DNA of 64,000 bases from a virus, in IMG/VR virus record IMGVR_UViG_3300045012_000181, positions 1 to 64,000 of that record; one strand, 5' to 3'. The translations under genes and the position numbers were made by a program. Below the pieces are notes generated by a model. It made no database searches. It had not been told where the DNA came from and saw nothing but the letters and a program-made list of their open reading frames with translations. This document shows, piece by piece, positions 35,776-42,527 of the stretch (its first letter is position 1; each line of letters opens with the position of its first letter).

Positions 35776-36006
35776 TCAGCACCTCGAAAATAGCGTAAGG
35801 AATTCCAACTTAGTGCGAGCGTAATCGCCGGGGAAGGCATTCTCACCATGCTTAGTTGCAGCGCTCTGTGTGGCTTCGTATAGACCTAAGGCATCAATGG
35901 GTTTCTGCGTCAACTCCCATTGTACACGGCTGTCGTTTACAATAGCGTCCGTTGTGTTTTGGTCGATGCCCGAGCCCGCAAGCCACAAAACCAGATTAGT
36001 TTTCAT
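35776..36006 (-). CDS. Hypothetical protein (76 aa)
   Basis: MKTNLVLWLAGSGIDQNT then helical, acidic-to-basic text. Coupled to the NAMPT gene stop by ATGA. Function unknown; co-translation suggests a link to the NAD genes. Confidence 0.6.
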   Translation of the reverse strand: MKTNLVLWLAGSGIDQNTTDAIVNDSRVQWELTQKPIDALGLYEATQSAATKHGENAFPGDYARTKLEFLTLFSRC

Positions 36007-37451
36007 GTTCGTACGCGCTTTCGAATGGTATCGAAGTCCTCTCGAATCAACAACTTACCGTTGCTAAAAATCTTCTGGAAGGCACAGTTGTTAAGGGCTG
36101 CGGGCAACTGTTCATCTACGACATAAAGACCATCGGCCTTGCTGCTGTAAACAGCCGGAATGCCCTTCAAGGAGGCCTTGCTAAAACCGCCTTCGGCCGT
36201 AACGGGCTTCTTGAAAATATCCAGAATTTTGCCCGAACGCCTGACCGCAGTGGCCTTCATGGCGAATCCGTAGGTATCACGGGTGACGTATTCATAGGTA
36301 TAGGAACCTATTCCGAATACGATGTTAAACGGGCTCAGGCCCATCTTCACACAGCCCTCTAGAATGGCATCCGCACGCTCCAATGAGATGCCGTCGCCGT
36401 AAATCAAACCGGCTTTGTTGATGTGTCCGGCGCCGTCCGTGCCCAGCGCCCGGCGTAGCAGCTCTAAGGCCCCATAAGCCGCAGGGTGCGTGCCATAGGG
36501 TGCGTCGGAGTCGCCCAGCATGATCTTAACAGGGTCTCCGCTGTCCGGACGGATTACAACCTTGCCGTCCCGTGCGAGGATTTCCTTGCGCAGGGCCGGA
36601 ATGTACTCCATGAGAACCTTCCAAAGGTCCCAAGTATCCGATACGATGCTAACAATTCCAGTGGGATAGGTCTCCGTTATGAGACGCCTGAAGGTCTCGA
36701 ATTCACCATCCATACCACCGGCGCACATCACAGAATGTTCAGTGGCAGGGACGCTCCCACCACAGCTCAAGGGGGCATCATAGAATTCCCTAGCGGCCAG
36801 AATCGCGGGTATGGTATCCGTGCCGTTGAAGCTCAATAGATGACCCATACCGGAGAACATGGCGTCCTCCAACCCACTCATACCCCGATAGGAGAAATCG
36901 TGGCCCTGCCAATCCACGAAACTCAGGTCCTTCTCGCCAAAATTCCGGGCGTGCTTGATGAACAGTTCCCGGAAGCGGGCTGCTGTAGTTGCGGAGGTGG
37001 TGGACTTCCAGAGCGCATTAGATAACGCGGTCTCAAGAAAATTCGGAAGCCAATAGGCGCTATCATTGGTATTGGTTATGACAAGCATGGGCACGCCCAG
37101 CGGAACACGGGAGCCCTCCGGCAAGGCCCAAATATCCAGCGGAAGGTAGCCCAGTTCCCAGAGCCTTCTTATGTGGTCCAGTTTGGGCTCTTTGAGGCCC
37201 AATGTGGCCAGCACGAATTCCCTGTATTGTTCCGCTATAAGACTCCAACTCTGTTCAAAAAATGCCGGCTTCCAGCGCATGAGATTGTTCTGGATGAAGG
37301 CCCTTGCACCGAACCAGCGCACGTCCTTCTCGCCGGGTATTCGCGAACTGCGGGCCGTCCAGTTGGACCAGACCTGTTGCGTATCGGTGGGATATTGCTC
37401 CCAATGGTGAAGCTTATAAAAATCCGCGTGGTAAAGCGGTGAAGGGTTCAT
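36003..37451 (-). CDS. nadV: Nicotinamide phosphoribosyltransferase-like enzyme (NAMPT/NadV, or NARP1 Namat)
   Basis: 482 aa, full NAMPT length. Landmarks: KLHHWEQYPTDTQ near residue 12, DWQGHDFSYRGMSG near 185, SVPATEHSVM near 239 with the catalytic His, VVIRPDSGDPVK near 305 (ribose-phosphate binding) and FGIGSYTYEYVTRD near 383. The known reaction is nicotinamide + PRPP to NMN. Paired directly with a PRPP-synthetase-like gene. In NARP1 phages the same pair instead makes NAD+ from ADP-ribose (Adps + Namat). Which activity applies cannot be told by eye. Confidence 0.9.
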   Translation of the reverse strand: MNPSPLYHADFYKLHHWEQYPTDTQQVWSNWTARSSRIPGEKDVRWFGARAFIQNNLMRWKPAFFEQSWSLIAEQYREFVLATLGLKEPKLDHIRRLWELGYLPLDIWALPEGSRVPLGVPMLVITNTNDSAYWLPNFLETALSNALWKSTTSATTAARFRELFIKHARNFGEKDLSFVDWQGHDFSYRGMSGLEDAMFSGMGHLLSFNGTDTIPAILAAREFYDAPLSCGGSVPATEHSVMCAGGMDGEFETFRRLITETYPTGIVSIVSDTWDLWKVLMEYIPALRKEILARDGKVVIRPDSGDPVKIMLGDSDAPYGTHPAAYGALELLRRALGTDGAGHINKAGLIYGDGISLERADAILEGCVKMGLSPFNIVFGIGSYTYEYVTRDTYGFAMKATAVRRSGKILDIFKKPVTAEGGFSKASLKGIPAVYSSKADGLYVVDEQLPAALNNCAFQKIFSNGKLLIREDFDTIRKRVRT

Positions 37452-37454
37452 AGA

Positions 37455-38315
37455 CTAGTCTCTCCCACAGTTGTTGCACTCGCAATCGCACTCTTCGGAT
37501 TCGGGCATCTGGATACTGTATTCCGAGGTGAAGACCTGCTTGAAGTGCTTCAGCAACACGGCCCTGCCCTTGGAGAAAATTCCATGGCTCACGTACAAAT
37601 ACAGTTTCAAGTCGGGATTGATTTTTAAGAGCGCCTTAGCCAACCCAATAAAGGTTCCGCCGCCGTCGCAGATGTCGTCTATAATGAGGGCCTTCTTGGC
37701 GCGCTCCACTTGCGGCAGGTCCTCCCACCACACACTGAAGCCGCTGAGTTTGCCCGTCTTGGCATCCCGTTGCTTTCGACAGCAGGCCGTGGGCAAGCTA
37801 TAACGCAGGATGTCATAACGCTTATCTGAGCCTTCATCCGGCAAAATCAATACGAGGTCCCTACGACCCAGTTTCCTTATGATGGGCTGAATTTGGTCGC
37901 ATTGTCTATCCGTGGGATTGAGGTTGGCCAGATTTTCAAACAAATTGTGCGCCACGCCACTGTGCACATCAAAAGTCCAAACCACGCTGAAGTTCAAATT
38001 GTTAATCAACCGGGCCCAAACACCCAGGCCATGACTATCCCCGCCCACGAATCGACGGTCCGCACGGGCATAGGGCATGTAGGGCAGGAATAGACTGGAA
38101 CGCCAGAATCCGCCGGCGTGCTCAAGGGCGTCCTTGAGTTGGGCCAGTTCTATGATATCCGGGATGGGGTTGCAGATAATCTCAAACTCGTCTTTGCCCT
38201 TCACAGCGGCCAGCCCTTTGGCCGTTAGCCGGACTTGGATTTCGCCAGCTGGATAGTGGATTACGCTGTAGAGCACGCCCCGGTCTTGGGGGATTTTGAG
38301 GGTGAGTTTTTTCAC
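37455..38315 (-). CDS. prs: Ribose-phosphate pyrophosphokinase-like enzyme (Prs, or NARP1 Adps)
   Basis: 286 aa. YPAGEIQVRLTAKGL near residue 21, LPYMPYARADRRFVGGD near 75 (ATP/flexible loop region), VWTFDVHSGVAHNLFENL near 110, and the PRPP loop IIDDICDGGGTFIGLAKAL near 218. Slightly shorter than bacterial Prs. C-terminus is Cys-rich (CDCECNNCG), unusual for Prs. Four bases from the NAMPT gene, so translation is coupled. It makes PRPP for NAMPT, or phosphorylates ADP-ribose as Adps. Confidence 0.88.
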   Translation of the reverse strand: MKKLTLKIPQDRGVLYSVIHYPAGEIQVRLTAKGLAAVKGKDEFEIICNPIPDIIELAQLKDALEHAGGFWRSSLFLPYMPYARADRRFVGGDSHGLGVWARLINNLNFSVVWTFDVHSGVAHNLFENLANLNPTDRQCDQIQPIIRKLGRRDLVLILPDEGSDKRYDILRYSLPTACCRKQRDAKTGKLSGFSVWWEDLPQVERAKKALIIDDICDGGGTFIGLAKALLKINPDLKLYLYVSHGIFSKGRAVLLKHFKQVFTSEYSIQMPESEECDCECNNCGRD

Positions 38316-41099: not shown

Positions 41100-41184
41100 G
41101 CCCGGGAATCAAGCGAATGCGGTTATGCCTGTTAGGGCATTCTCATTTTCAGTAAGAAGTAACCGCACTCTAACGTCACCGAGC
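41100..41184 (-). ncRNA. Y RNA gene 1 (nearest Ro60)
   Basis: Basal helix GCTCGG/CCGGGC (41179-41184 with 41100-41105); internal loop 5' TGACGTTA and 3' GCTTGATTC; then an 11-bp helix GAGTGCGGTTA/TAACCGCATTC, a TACTTC motif and a head containing TGCC/GGCA. ATTTTTT follows the basal helix. The loop sequences differ slightly from the other four RNAs while pairing is kept. Its 5' arm overlaps the end of the 41176-41430 gene, and it ends just before the Ro60 ribosome binding site. Confidence 0.75.
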
Positions 41185-41430
41185 CCTTACACGGTCTGGA
41201 ATATGCAACTGCAATAGCTTCACAACCTCTACAAGTTCGTAGTCACTAGTATGTGGGTAGTGTCCATGGCCGATGTCGCGAACGTATTCCACGGAGCGCA
41301 TCTGCGCCATTGTGGGATTGCGTTTTAACAGGTCCGTCAATGACAACTCTCTAACGTGTTCAGCTATACCGTAAACAAAATCTGTTTCGTTAGCCTCTCT
41401 GCCGCGCTTTACATACTCCTGAGGTGTCAC
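41176..41430 (-). CDS. Hypothetical protein inside the Y RNA array (84 aa)
   Basis: GTG at 41430 follows GGAGGCCCG. VKRGREANETDFVYGIAEHV and LLKRNPTMAQMRSVEYVRDI: helical with charged residues. Lying between Y RNA genes and Ro60, it may belong to the same system. No family recognised. Confidence 0.6.
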   Translation of the reverse strand: MTPQEYVKRGREANETDFVYGIAEHVRELSLTDLLKRNPTMAQMRSVEYVRDIGHGHYPHTSDYELVEVVKLLQLHIPDRVRAR

Positions 41431-41445
41431 CGGGCCTCCAAAAAT

Positions 41446-41549
41446 ACACGGGCATCAGGCGAACTCAGAAATTGTGGGGTTTGAACCCACCACCGGCCCT
41501 TGCGGGCCAGTTCTTGACCAGAAGTATCTGAAGTTCTACGGCACCGTGT
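41446..41549 (-). ncRNA. Y RNA gene 2, with a tRNA T-arm-like hairpin
   Basis: Basal helix ACACGG/CCGTGT; loop TGCCGTA and GCCTGATGC; upper helix GAACTTCAGA/TCTGAGTTC with one bulged T; then TACTTC. The head holds GGCCC-GCAA-GGGCC (41495-41508) and a perfect T-arm-like hairpin GTGGG-TTCAAAC-CCCAC (41474-41490). ATTTTTGG follows. It lacks an anticodon and acceptor end, so it is not a tRNA. Confidence 0.8.
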
Positions 41550-41669
41550 TCAAAATTAAAGCCGGAAGGGCAGCGACGTTTCTACGGCATTGGAGGATAC
41601 CACCTATTCGATGGTAGACGTTATTCACCCGCGCCACCCATCCGGTTGGTACTTTGTTGCAACAAAAAT

Positions 41670-41803
41670 CGAGGAGCATCAGACGATTGGGGTGTCTTTT
41701 TGACAGGCGCTCTCCCAACTGAGCTACGGTCTTGCGACCGACGGGGCTCGAACCCGCGACATCCTGTTTTACATGAAGTATCCCGCAATCTACGGCATCC
41801 TCG
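41670..41803 (-). ncRNA. yrlA: Y RNA gene 3, YrlA-like with a permuted tRNA-mimic head
   Basis: Basal helix CGAGGA/TCCTCG; loop TGCCGTA and GTCTGATGC; helix GATTGCGGG/CCCCAATC with one bulged C; TACTTC. The head is a tRNA turned inside out: stem ACAGG/CCTGT, a canonical T arm (41741-41757, loop TTCGAGC), a stem CGGTC-GCAA-GACCG where an acceptor would be, then TA and a D arm GCTC-AGTTGGGA-GAGC (41709-41724). This is the arrangement of bacterial YrlA effector modules. ATTTTTG follows. Adjacent to Ro60, so a Y RNA assignment is strong. Confidence 0.88.
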
Positions 41804-41814
41804 TTGAACTCAAA

Positions 41815-41880
41815 GGTGGCGCAACAGGCACCCAAGGAGTTTTCATCCATTAGAAGTATCCATGGGTTACGGCAGCCACC
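41815..41880 (-). ncRNA. Y RNA gene 4, minimal
   Basis: The shortest member (66 nt): basal helix GGTGGC/GCCACC; loop TGCCGTA and GCCTGTTGC; helix ACCCATGGA/TCCTTGGGT with one T-T mismatch; then TACTTC and a loop of about 20 nt. It carries only the Ro-binding part with almost no head. No long T-run is present; it directly precedes gene 3 in the transcript. Confidence 0.75.
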
Positions 41881-41894
41881 CGGAGCGTAGCTCC

Positions 41895-42040
41895 GTTAAA
41901 ACCATCCGTCGCATAAAAATCATGGGCACAACGTCTCCCGATTAGTGCTCTCCCGCTTCGGAGCTGTCGGATGCGCCCTGCGGGCTGTGTTCTTTGACGC
42001 AGCCAACGACCTGTAGTACGGCCCCGGTCGCCTCGGAATT
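41895..42040 (-). ncRNA. Possible sixth, divergent Y RNA
   Basis: Contains GGCCGTA near 42020, a D-arm-like GCTC-CGAAGCGGGA-GAGC near 41950, a T-arm-like hairpin with CGTCAAAG near 41990 and a CATGATTTTTATGC end. An interrupted helix (CTACAGGTC with GACGTTGTG) may close it, but the conserved internal loop is incomplete. It fits between the 42040 gene stop and Y RNA gene 4. Tentative. Confidence 0.4.
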
Positions 42041-42330
42041 TAACGCTGCACAACGACTTGCGAGGCCTTCTGAGTTTCCAGGGCCTTACGAATCTCAGTG
42101 CTCATATACTGCAGGGCCTTGGCTTCGGCCTCAAACTTAGCGGCCTTGACTTCAGAGGCCTGTTGGTCAGCGGTGCGTTGCTCGGCCAGTTTCTCGCGTT
42201 GCAACTCCACATTCAGGGCGTGTTCGGCCCGACGCATGACATTGCCGTGCAACGTACAGACCATGCTGGCCAGCGCAATGCTCGCTGTCATTCCAAATGC
42301 GCCCAGCATAATACAAGGTGTTATGTCCAT
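42040..42330 (-). CDS. Membrane-anchored coiled-coil protein (96 aa)
   Basis: ATG at 42330 follows GAGGAGAAAACC. One hydrophobic segment (MLGAFGMTASIALASMVC), then a coiled coil (REKLAEQRTADQQASEVKAA). It lies inside the Y RNA array, between genes 4/6 and 5. Function unknown. Confidence 0.6.
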   Translation of the reverse strand: MDITPCIMLGAFGMTASIALASMVCTLHGNVMRRAEHALNVELQREKLAEQRTADQQASEVKAAKFEAEAKALQYMSTEIRKALETQKASQVVVQR

Positions 42331-42434
42331 GGTTTTCTCCTCAAAATCGAGCGCCTTTTGGTTCTCTGTTCTACATATCAACCCGGCCCGGCGCTTAACA
42401 GGCGCTTTCGGACGCTCTACCAACTCAAAATCAA

Positions 42435-42519
42435 CGCAGGGCATCAATCGTCTGGAGCGGTGCCTCCTTGACGGAGGCGCTTCTTAACGGGAAGTAGCTC
42501 CAGGCATACGGCACCTGCG
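42435..42519 (-). ncRNA. Y RNA gene 5
   Basis: Basal helix CGCAGG/CCTGCG; loop TGCCGTA and ending TTGATGC; helix CTGGAGC/GCTCCAG; TA; CTTC-CCGTTAA-GAAG hairpin; and a head GCCTCC-GTCAA-GGAGGC. It is the first member of the array in the direction of transcription. Downstream, 42340-42430 holds further hairpin-forming sequence (GCGC-CTGTTAA-GCGC and a direct repeat GATTTTGAG) that I could not assign. Confidence 0.75.
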
Positions 42520-42527
42520 CTTTAGAA

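Follow-up and report, generated by a model that had tools for sequence, protein, structure and literature searches.

Five Y RNAs, several with tRNA-like heads, beside a phage Ro60 gene and their possible role as decoys

Y RNAs reportedly lie near Ro60 in many bacteria and phages, a finding credited to Chen in 2014. In the accessible parts of the papers cited here, Y RNAs have been identified bioinformatically in mycobacteriophages (PMC12282133), several phages are reported to have YrlA (PMC7765460), and a complex of Rsr, YrlA and PNPase has been described (PMC8394870, PMC7790460, PMC4987338), with Ro60, YrlA and PNPase degrading structured RNA (PMC8394870, PMC7790460). The same parts tell of a Salmonella operon with RtcB that responds to cleaved tRNAs (PMC8394870, PMC7790460), of the suggestion that YrlA might inhibit an anticodon nuclease by competition (PMC7790460), of a circular permutation, relative to tRNA, in a bacterial Y RNA (PDB 6CU1; PMC11472068), and of phage tRNAs that have been proposed (PMC10264068) and shown (PMC11555353) to counter tRNA-cutting defences. 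Y RNAs near Ro60, those of phages included, and the permuted tRNA module are already known, and the heads described here bear on what Y RNA heads may do beyond tethering PNPase. We analyzed a 64-kb window (positions 1 to 64,000) of the 125.6-kb virus record IMGVR_UViG_3300045012_000181, in which a predicted Ro60 gene is accompanied by five Y RNAs, designated A to E, that share one handle and carry different heads. We suggest from their sequences, with a probability of roughly 0.4, that the RNAs, bound to Ro60, serve as decoys for enzymes attacking tRNA, beside an RtcB ligase of the phage.

The locus resembles the Salmonella rsr-yrlBA-rtcBA RNA-repair operon in having a Ro60 gene, several adjoining Y RNAs and RtcB in the same genome, but here RtcB lies 6.5 kb away, the RNAs number five and some of them have anticodon-arm heads. 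Phage tRNA arrays, as the accessible parts of the papers describe them (PMC10264068, PMC11555353), are likewise phage RNAs with varied anticodons and a possible answer to the same host weapon; those, however, are tRNAs that replace or resist, whereas the RNAs of the window are handle-bearing fragments or permuted forms that presumably do not decode. The candidate Y RNAs of Listeria phage CKA15 likewise lie near an Rsr-like gene, there in highly transcribed regions, but Y RNA is one of several readings offered in the accessible part of that report (PMC12282133).

The initial annotation, made from the letters of the stretch, had placed five segments of one architecture on the minus strand, and all five are present there. 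Because the heads are too divergent for a covariance model of the five RNAs, we used a handle descriptor (basal helix, TGnCGTA-like loop, upper helix, TACTTC and 3' loop) and a handle alignment; the descriptor, whose form was derived from the window and loci L001-L014 of relatives, was applied with a cut-off that differed by test (at least 11 in the window; 13.5, 14 or 15.5 in relatives' loci). Run over both strands of the window, it matched exactly the five RNAs (Table 1). The motif TGCCGTA..TACTTC is found in RNAs A-D, that is, in four copies against 0.04 expected in the window, with no further copy elsewhere in the 125.6-kb record; a chance pattern was rejected on this count and on the descriptor controls (other strand and shuffles). 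Four of the five RNAs fold better than their dinucleotide shuffles, and RNA C is not outstanding, 17 of 200 shuffles being equally good.

Table 1. The RNAs and the two genes of the Ro60 locus, in coordinates of the 64-kb window (z, fold score against dinucleotide shuffles)
Feature	Position	Strand	Support
RNA A, handle and head	42433..42521	-	descriptor score 20.3; minimum free energy fold z -4.5
RNA B, handle and minimal head	41814..41881	-	descriptor score 18.0; fold z -3.3
RNA C, handle and circularly permuted tRNA head	41670..41803	-	Rfam YrlA, ARAGORN; fold z -1.4
RNA D, handle and two-hairpin head	41446..41549	-	descriptor score 19.5; fold z -3.4
RNA E, handle and anticodon-arm-like head	41100..41184	-	descriptor score 19.0; minimum free energy fold z -3.8
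Predicted Ro60 gene (TROVE and vWA), 464 amino acids	39687..41081	-	Pfam, predicted fold
RtcB RNA ligase gene, 390 amino acids	32033..33205	-	Pfam RtcB E 8.5e-48; PHROG tRNA splicing ligase E 2.8e-67

In minimum free energy (MFE) folds, the head of RNA A consists of a hairpin with a loop of 7 nucleotides (nt), CUUC-CCGUUAA-GAAG at 42480-42494, and then a GC-rich hairpin, and RNA E has the hairpin UUCUUA-CUGAAAA-UGAGAA at 41140-41158. RNA B folds into a small hairpin with an 8-nt loop, UUC-UAAUGGAU-GAA; RNA C has, in this order, a T-arm, a closed acceptor hairpin and a D-arm; RNA D combines a GC-rich hairpin, by eye similar to a class II variable arm, with a T-arm-like hairpin of 7-nt loop, no D-arm being seen in it. 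Just downstream of RNA A, at 42385-42425 on the minus strand, a tRNA-Asn-like fragment was noticed by eye (a D-arm piece, AGTTGGTAGAGCG, and GCGC-CTGTTAA-GCGC); it has no handle, folds no better than shuffles (185 of 200 equally good) and may be what is left of a captured tRNA gene. The 125.6-kb record yielded no canonical tRNA.

Relatives of the Ro60 gene were surveyed in a first set of loci (L001-L174), from whose counts L005 and L006 (own genome) and L020 and L024 (contigs of L001 and L002) were dropped, and in 129 later loci (L175-L303), which came from related-query scans and seven chosen phage records. The scans hardly cover more distant phages, the loci of phiLo, VanLee and HGTV-1 lying outside them. 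Over both sets, there are 297 distinct RNAs on the Ro60 strand, opposite-strand matches being left out; only exact duplicates were removed and the sequences are related, so the counts are not independent. As the initial annotation had anticipated in proposing a Y RNA family with one handle, such RNAs recur near other TROVE genes: at score 13.5, at least one was found in 67 of the 90 viral loci and 37 of the 80 bacterial ones, leaving 23 and 43 with none, while the opposite strand gave two matches and shuffled loci four. At score 15.5, the Ro60 strand has 185 matches, whereas the opposite strand and 1.43 Mb of shuffled sequence have none; 166 of the 185 start within 2 kb upstream of the Ro60 gene and 13 downstream, and the crAss RNAs also lie downstream of their Ro60 genes (L013, L303). 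The 129 later loci gave 151 matches against three at score 14. The 43 bacterial loci without a match belong to L095-L174; a few have little upstream sequence, and any Y RNAs that the 43 do contain may use another handle. The supposition that arrays of several RNAs are new to phages is not supported, since two or more were found in 36 of the 90 viral loci (and in 19 of the 80 bacterial ones, score 13.5) and phage Y RNAs are already in print; the Caulobacter phages CcrColossus and CcrPW have seven each.

The handle covaries strongly in both its basal and its upper helix, which the initial annotation had named as support. The alignment consists of 45 relatives' handles chosen by sequence motif alone, with pairing unused in order to avoid circularity; all five window RNAs are absent from it, since they differ in loop length, helix length or 3' motif. 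In it, 89.5% of cells are paired compared with 56.9% in shuffles, and the covariation score is 0.881 compared with 0.252 for shuffles and 0.12-0.20 when the columns are slid by 1-3; all 14 of 14 pairs change on both sides, a result that does not discriminate, as 32 of 500 shuffles reach it. A second motif-only set of 39 matches has 35 different basal sequences, and yet forms 5.54 of 6 basal pairs against 3.23 with shuffled partners (maximum 3.74 of 1000), and 3.87 of the first five upper pairs against 2.84 (maximum 3.21 of 300). The element first described as an asymmetric loop is instead a bulged helix, in which two base pairs come after an unpaired U, one being G8-C50 in all 45 handles and the other, in columns 9-49, G-C in 39 and C-G in six; the window folds agree. 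On locus, descriptor and covariation tests, all of them sequence evidence, we identify the five RNAs as Y RNAs, and we are highly confident that the structural description given here is correct.

The product of the neighboring gene matches the TROVE family of Pfam (E 1.1e-18; 68.1 bits against a cut-off of 23) and falls just under the cut-offs of vWA profiles (26.8 of 27 and 25.3 of 27.7). Its predicted structure, with a mean predicted local distance difference test score of 82.9, matches solved Ro60/TROVE proteins with Z scores of 17.8-25.8, namely, 9kop (25.8), 9l5y, the Ro60 of Thermus phage phiLo (23.4), other Ro60 entries (18.2-21.8, including 1yvp at 21.1) and 2nvo, the Deinococcus Rsr (17.8). 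The phage Ro60 misses the equivalog cut-off of the NCBIfam Rsr model NF041674 (14.4 against 900 bits). Pfam and the modelled fold thus support a Ro60 protein with a vWA domain.

The heads had been called unrelated, whereas many of them are pieces of tRNA: anticodon-arm-like hairpins, sequences that ARAGORN reads as tRNAs when circularized, and a YrlA-like module. With regard to the first, many RNAs have a 7-nt-loop hairpin whose 5' strand is supplied by the end of the conserved UACUUC. Such a hairpin with at least four pairs is present in 115 of the 297 RNAs, against 20.6 (maximum 33) in 200 shuffles, and with U33, a purine at 37 and A38 it is present in 59, against 0.55 (maximum 3); head shuffles were of single letters, not dinucleotides. 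The idea arose from viewing the heads of L001-L174, and only L175-L303 are held out for it; these overlap contigs already seen, and the tests were limited to 91 previously unseen sequences, of which 35 have the hairpin (6.2 in shuffles; maximum 14) and 14 the canonical form (0.23; maximum 2). Among held-out short heads, the 7-nt arm occurs in 16 of 47 against 2.3 (maximum 8). When 133 short heads were folded within their own RNAs by MFE, 119 formed hairpins, 45 of them with a 7-nt loop (5, 7, 4, 10 and 5 in five shuffles), and 22 had U33, a purine at 37 and A or C at 38 (0, 0, 1, 4 and 0). These 22 arms, which include RNAs of crAss001 and cr106 as well as RNA E of the window, carry 14 different triplets, none with A34. 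In the window, the folds show arms in two RNAs, A and E, and a fully canonical one in E, which is of Phe-GAA type with U33, a purine at 37, A38 and at least four pairs. An open-licence literature search found no description of anticodon-arm heads with varied triplets or of arm-only Y RNAs.

The triplet is the variable part of these loops. In 80 first-set loops, the entropies of positions 34-36 are 1.77, 1.96 and 1.84 bits and those of positions 32, 33, 37 and 38 are 1.56, 1.35, 1.30 and 1.13; the held-out loops give 1.81, 1.89 and 1.60 and, for the flanking positions, 1.32, 1.49, 1.30 and 1.54. The same loop positions are conserved in natural tRNAs of the same loci. Of 82 distinct Y loops, 19 are identical to natural tRNA loops over positions 32-38 (8.9 with shuffled columns; maximum 19), 25 over 33-38 (17.6; maximum 28) and 52 over 34-37 (39.9; maximum 49), which moderately supports an equality of Y loops with natural tRNA loops. 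The commonest loop of the Y RNAs is the Asn-type CTGTTAA (16 of 115, against 10 of 265 distinct natural tRNAs of the same loci, uncorrected for kinship). In L098 and L117, the Rfam tRNA model weakly aligns the arm of the Y RNA to its own anticodon arm. The "tRNA" genes annotated just before Ro60 in the phages CcrColossus, Gurke, Kikimora and 10KY502B (Gln, Ser, Ser and Thr at L008 3128-3195, L011 3766-3840, L301 2266-2340 and L297 2331-2398) lie inside Y RNAs found by the descriptor and are likely misannotations. Anticodon loops, as is generally known, carry many modification sites, and YrlA is a reported substrate of DusA and TruB in the accessible part of one paper (PMC8394870), so the RNAs could be ligands of the host's tRNA-modifying enzymes, which they would exploit or block. 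We judge this quite improbable: the triplets have no common single-enzyme target, and no modifying enzyme was noticed at the loci, where no search was aimed at one.

The triplet can differ between close relatives. It does so in five of nine nearest pairs that have an arm, the loop being unchanged in four: L077 and L088 (97% identical; CTGTTAA and CTGTGGA), L046 and L052 (97%; CTGCGAT and CTGCTAA), CcrColossus and CcrPW (94%; ATCTGGA and ATTAGGA), the Xanthomonas phages Olaya and 10KY502B (86%; CTGTTAA and CTTGTAA), and L103 and L114 (86%; CTCATAA and CTTGTAA). Over the nine pairs, the loop makes up 63 of 1117 sites (5.6%) and accounts for 10 of 71 substitutions (p 0.006), eight of the 10 at positions 34-36 and none at 32-33.

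Longer heads resemble larger parts of tRNA. Among first-set heads of at least 50 nt, ARAGORN finds a tRNA in 88 of 117 when they are circularized and in none when they are linear or in three shuffles; as many as 156 trims were tried on each head, the linear and shuffled controls being treated alike. Without trimming, the circles give 54 of 117, or 67 with an intron allowed (none in linear heads and five shuffles), and among held-out heads 33 of 42 are tRNAs as circles (none in linear heads and one shuffle). This is the known permutation of YrlA, and RNA C has it. Because the anticodon that ARAGORN reports often depends on the trim (gta for RNA C, or aaa, tgt or gta across trims) and that region is also ambiguous in RNA D, we claim no anticodon for RNAs C and D. 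The Rfam search gave a single match, below threshold, of RNA C (41705-41765) to YrlA (RF02553), with 33 bits, E 6.9e-5 and a gathering score of 69, and a plain family assignment of the RNAs was abandoned. Since sub-threshold YrlA matches at E 0.001 also occur in seven of 14 control genomes, this match is weak by itself; such matches were found in four of four bacterial genomes, and none reached the gathering score in 15 viral and 16 bacterial loci. The YrlA-type module (T-arm, closed acceptor hairpin, D-arm and closing stem) is present in RNA C and was unseen in A, B, D and E. RNA C and the 88 long heads thus share circular permutation with YrlA, but the consensus of the latter appears to leave no room for an anticodon arm, with approximately CUA between the upper helix and the closing stem. 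Among side observations, the RNAs at L008 3320-3431 (CcrColossus) and L009 3321-3432 have, by eye, a tRNA-Cys-like head in normal order with a reduced D-arm, and Brevundimonas phage Gurke (L011 7342-7687) has a match to permuted transfer-messenger RNA (RF04321; 57.7 bits, over the cut-off of 47) downstream of its Ro60 gene.

The YrlA-like module of RNA C, together with the Ro60-Y RNA-PNPase precedent of Deinococcus and Salmonella in the accessible parts of the literature (PMC8394870, PMC7790460, PMC4987338), brings up an explanation in which the heads would capture a nuclease and hold it at Ro60 for the degradation of structured RNA during infection, and tRNA features would serve only to bind this effector. 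It would agree with the many arrays, among those of at least three RNAs listed, that consist of one permuted-tRNA RNA and short ones. A single effector, however, would need neither anticodon-arm-only heads nor triplets that vary between a conserved U33, purine 37 and A38, and we consider this explanation somewhat unlikely. That U33, purine 37 and A38 are kept while the triplet varies fits decoys better than one shared tether.

The tRNA features might also be inherited and not selected, if the handle picks up pieces of tRNA genes by recombination and any stable hairpin can serve as a cap. The many partial forms of head, including the apparently non-permuted tRNA-Cys-like one in CcrColossus (L008 3320), the tRNA-Asn-like fragment beside RNA A, the ordinary tRNA genes in several Ro60 loci, and the 182 of 297 RNAs in which the strict arm is absent are all consistent with such an origin. 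Short heads, on the other hand, retain 7-nt loops with the signature of an anticodon loop although the rest of the tRNA is gone, and five of nine close pairs have kept the loop with another triplet; mere inheritance is in our estimation improbable.

In the decoy reading, the locus would be a phage Ro60 ribonucleoprotein cassette. Its five Y RNAs share the presumed Ro60-binding handle (helix, bulged U, upper helix and UACUUC), and most heads imitate parts of tRNA, namely, anticodon arms (E and A), a permuted body (C) and a T-arm-like hairpin (D), with B having a minimal loop. If the RNAs are transcribed, Ro60 may stabilize and display them; host enzymes recognizing the tRNA elbow or anticodon loops, and in particular the anticodon nucleases of phage defence, would then bind the decoys and not the tRNAs, and the RtcB ligase of the phage would mend those tRNAs that are still cut. 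The RtcB gene lies about 6.5 kb downstream of Ro60, on the same strand, and its product, which scores below the cut-offs of NCBIfam RtcB models, is a possible functional partner of the cassette. If true, this reading would link Ro60 with tRNA damage and its repair by RtcB, and might place another phage countermeasure against anticodon nucleases alongside extra tRNAs and tRNA repair; the variable-triplet anticodon loops, kept in phages as distant from each other as Caulobacter giants and crAss phages, give the heads a concrete role that can be tested, namely, to be recognized by enzymes reading such loops. In a wider form, which we put forward as doubtful, Ro60 of phages and their bacterial relatives could be a display stand for changeable anticodon stem-loop decoys, with a different anticodon on each RNA of an array and pressure from anticodon-specific nucleases driving the exchange of triplets between close relatives, the particle acting as a programmable sponge that guards the translation pool.

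Several observations weigh against decoys: (i) besides the 182 RNAs without a strict arm, among heads with neither a T-arm match nor a permuted-tRNA call, the arm is absent from 78 of 116 viral and 18 of 27 bacterial ones, and only two of 47 held-out short heads are fully canonical, against 0.07 (maximum 2) in shuffles, which is unconvincing alone; (ii) in the larger strict set, six of the 70 loops having U33 and a purine at 37 carry A34, which is unusual for tRNA; (iii) within the window, the arm of RNA A is in the Asn-GTT register but has C33, RNAs B (8-nt loop) and C (no local arm) present no anticodon arm, and RNA D, although flagged by the strict arm rule, is unclear, having two G-U pairs and no U33; (iv) the excess of loop substitutions is modest and comes from nine pairs, a small sample of related sequences, and the sole change in 112 nt between the L008 and L009 tRNA-Cys-like heads is, by eye, a U to C before the apparent GCA anticodon; (v) RtcB is present in only six of 42 related records, that is, in four of seven named phages (CcrColossus, Bambus, Gurke and a Rhizobium phage) and two of 35 IMG/VR contigs, which are perhaps fragments; and (vi) the role is not confined to phages, since bacterial loci have these RNAs too.

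The Ro60 start codon comes 18 nt after the end of RNA E and 11 nt after the end of its T run, which places RNA E within the leader region of Ro60. The hairpins could for this reason be parts of mRNA leaders, with RNA E, for example, controlling Ro60 translation, and not free RNAs, and the promoter-like and terminator-like matches in scans of the RNA region, which are at chance level, also speak for this. The other four RNAs are not directly 5' of Ro60, however, the heads mimic tRNA, and T runs follow C, D and E, so we find this explanation barely credible. Of the T runs first noted, the ATTTTT after these three RNAs stands; RNA A is followed by GATTTT, and RNA B has no T run.

Two small frames on the minus strand lie between the RNAs, one at 41176-41430 (84 amino acids; GTG start with a GGAGG-like site) and one at 42040-42330 (about 96 amino acids; ATG start), neither with a match in Pfam or PHROG. 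Downstream of Ro60, at 36003-38315 on the minus strand, there is a pair of genes for nicotinamide adenine dinucleotide salvage, one for a nicotinate/nicotinamide phosphoribosyltransferase and the other ribose-phosphate pyrophosphokinase-like.

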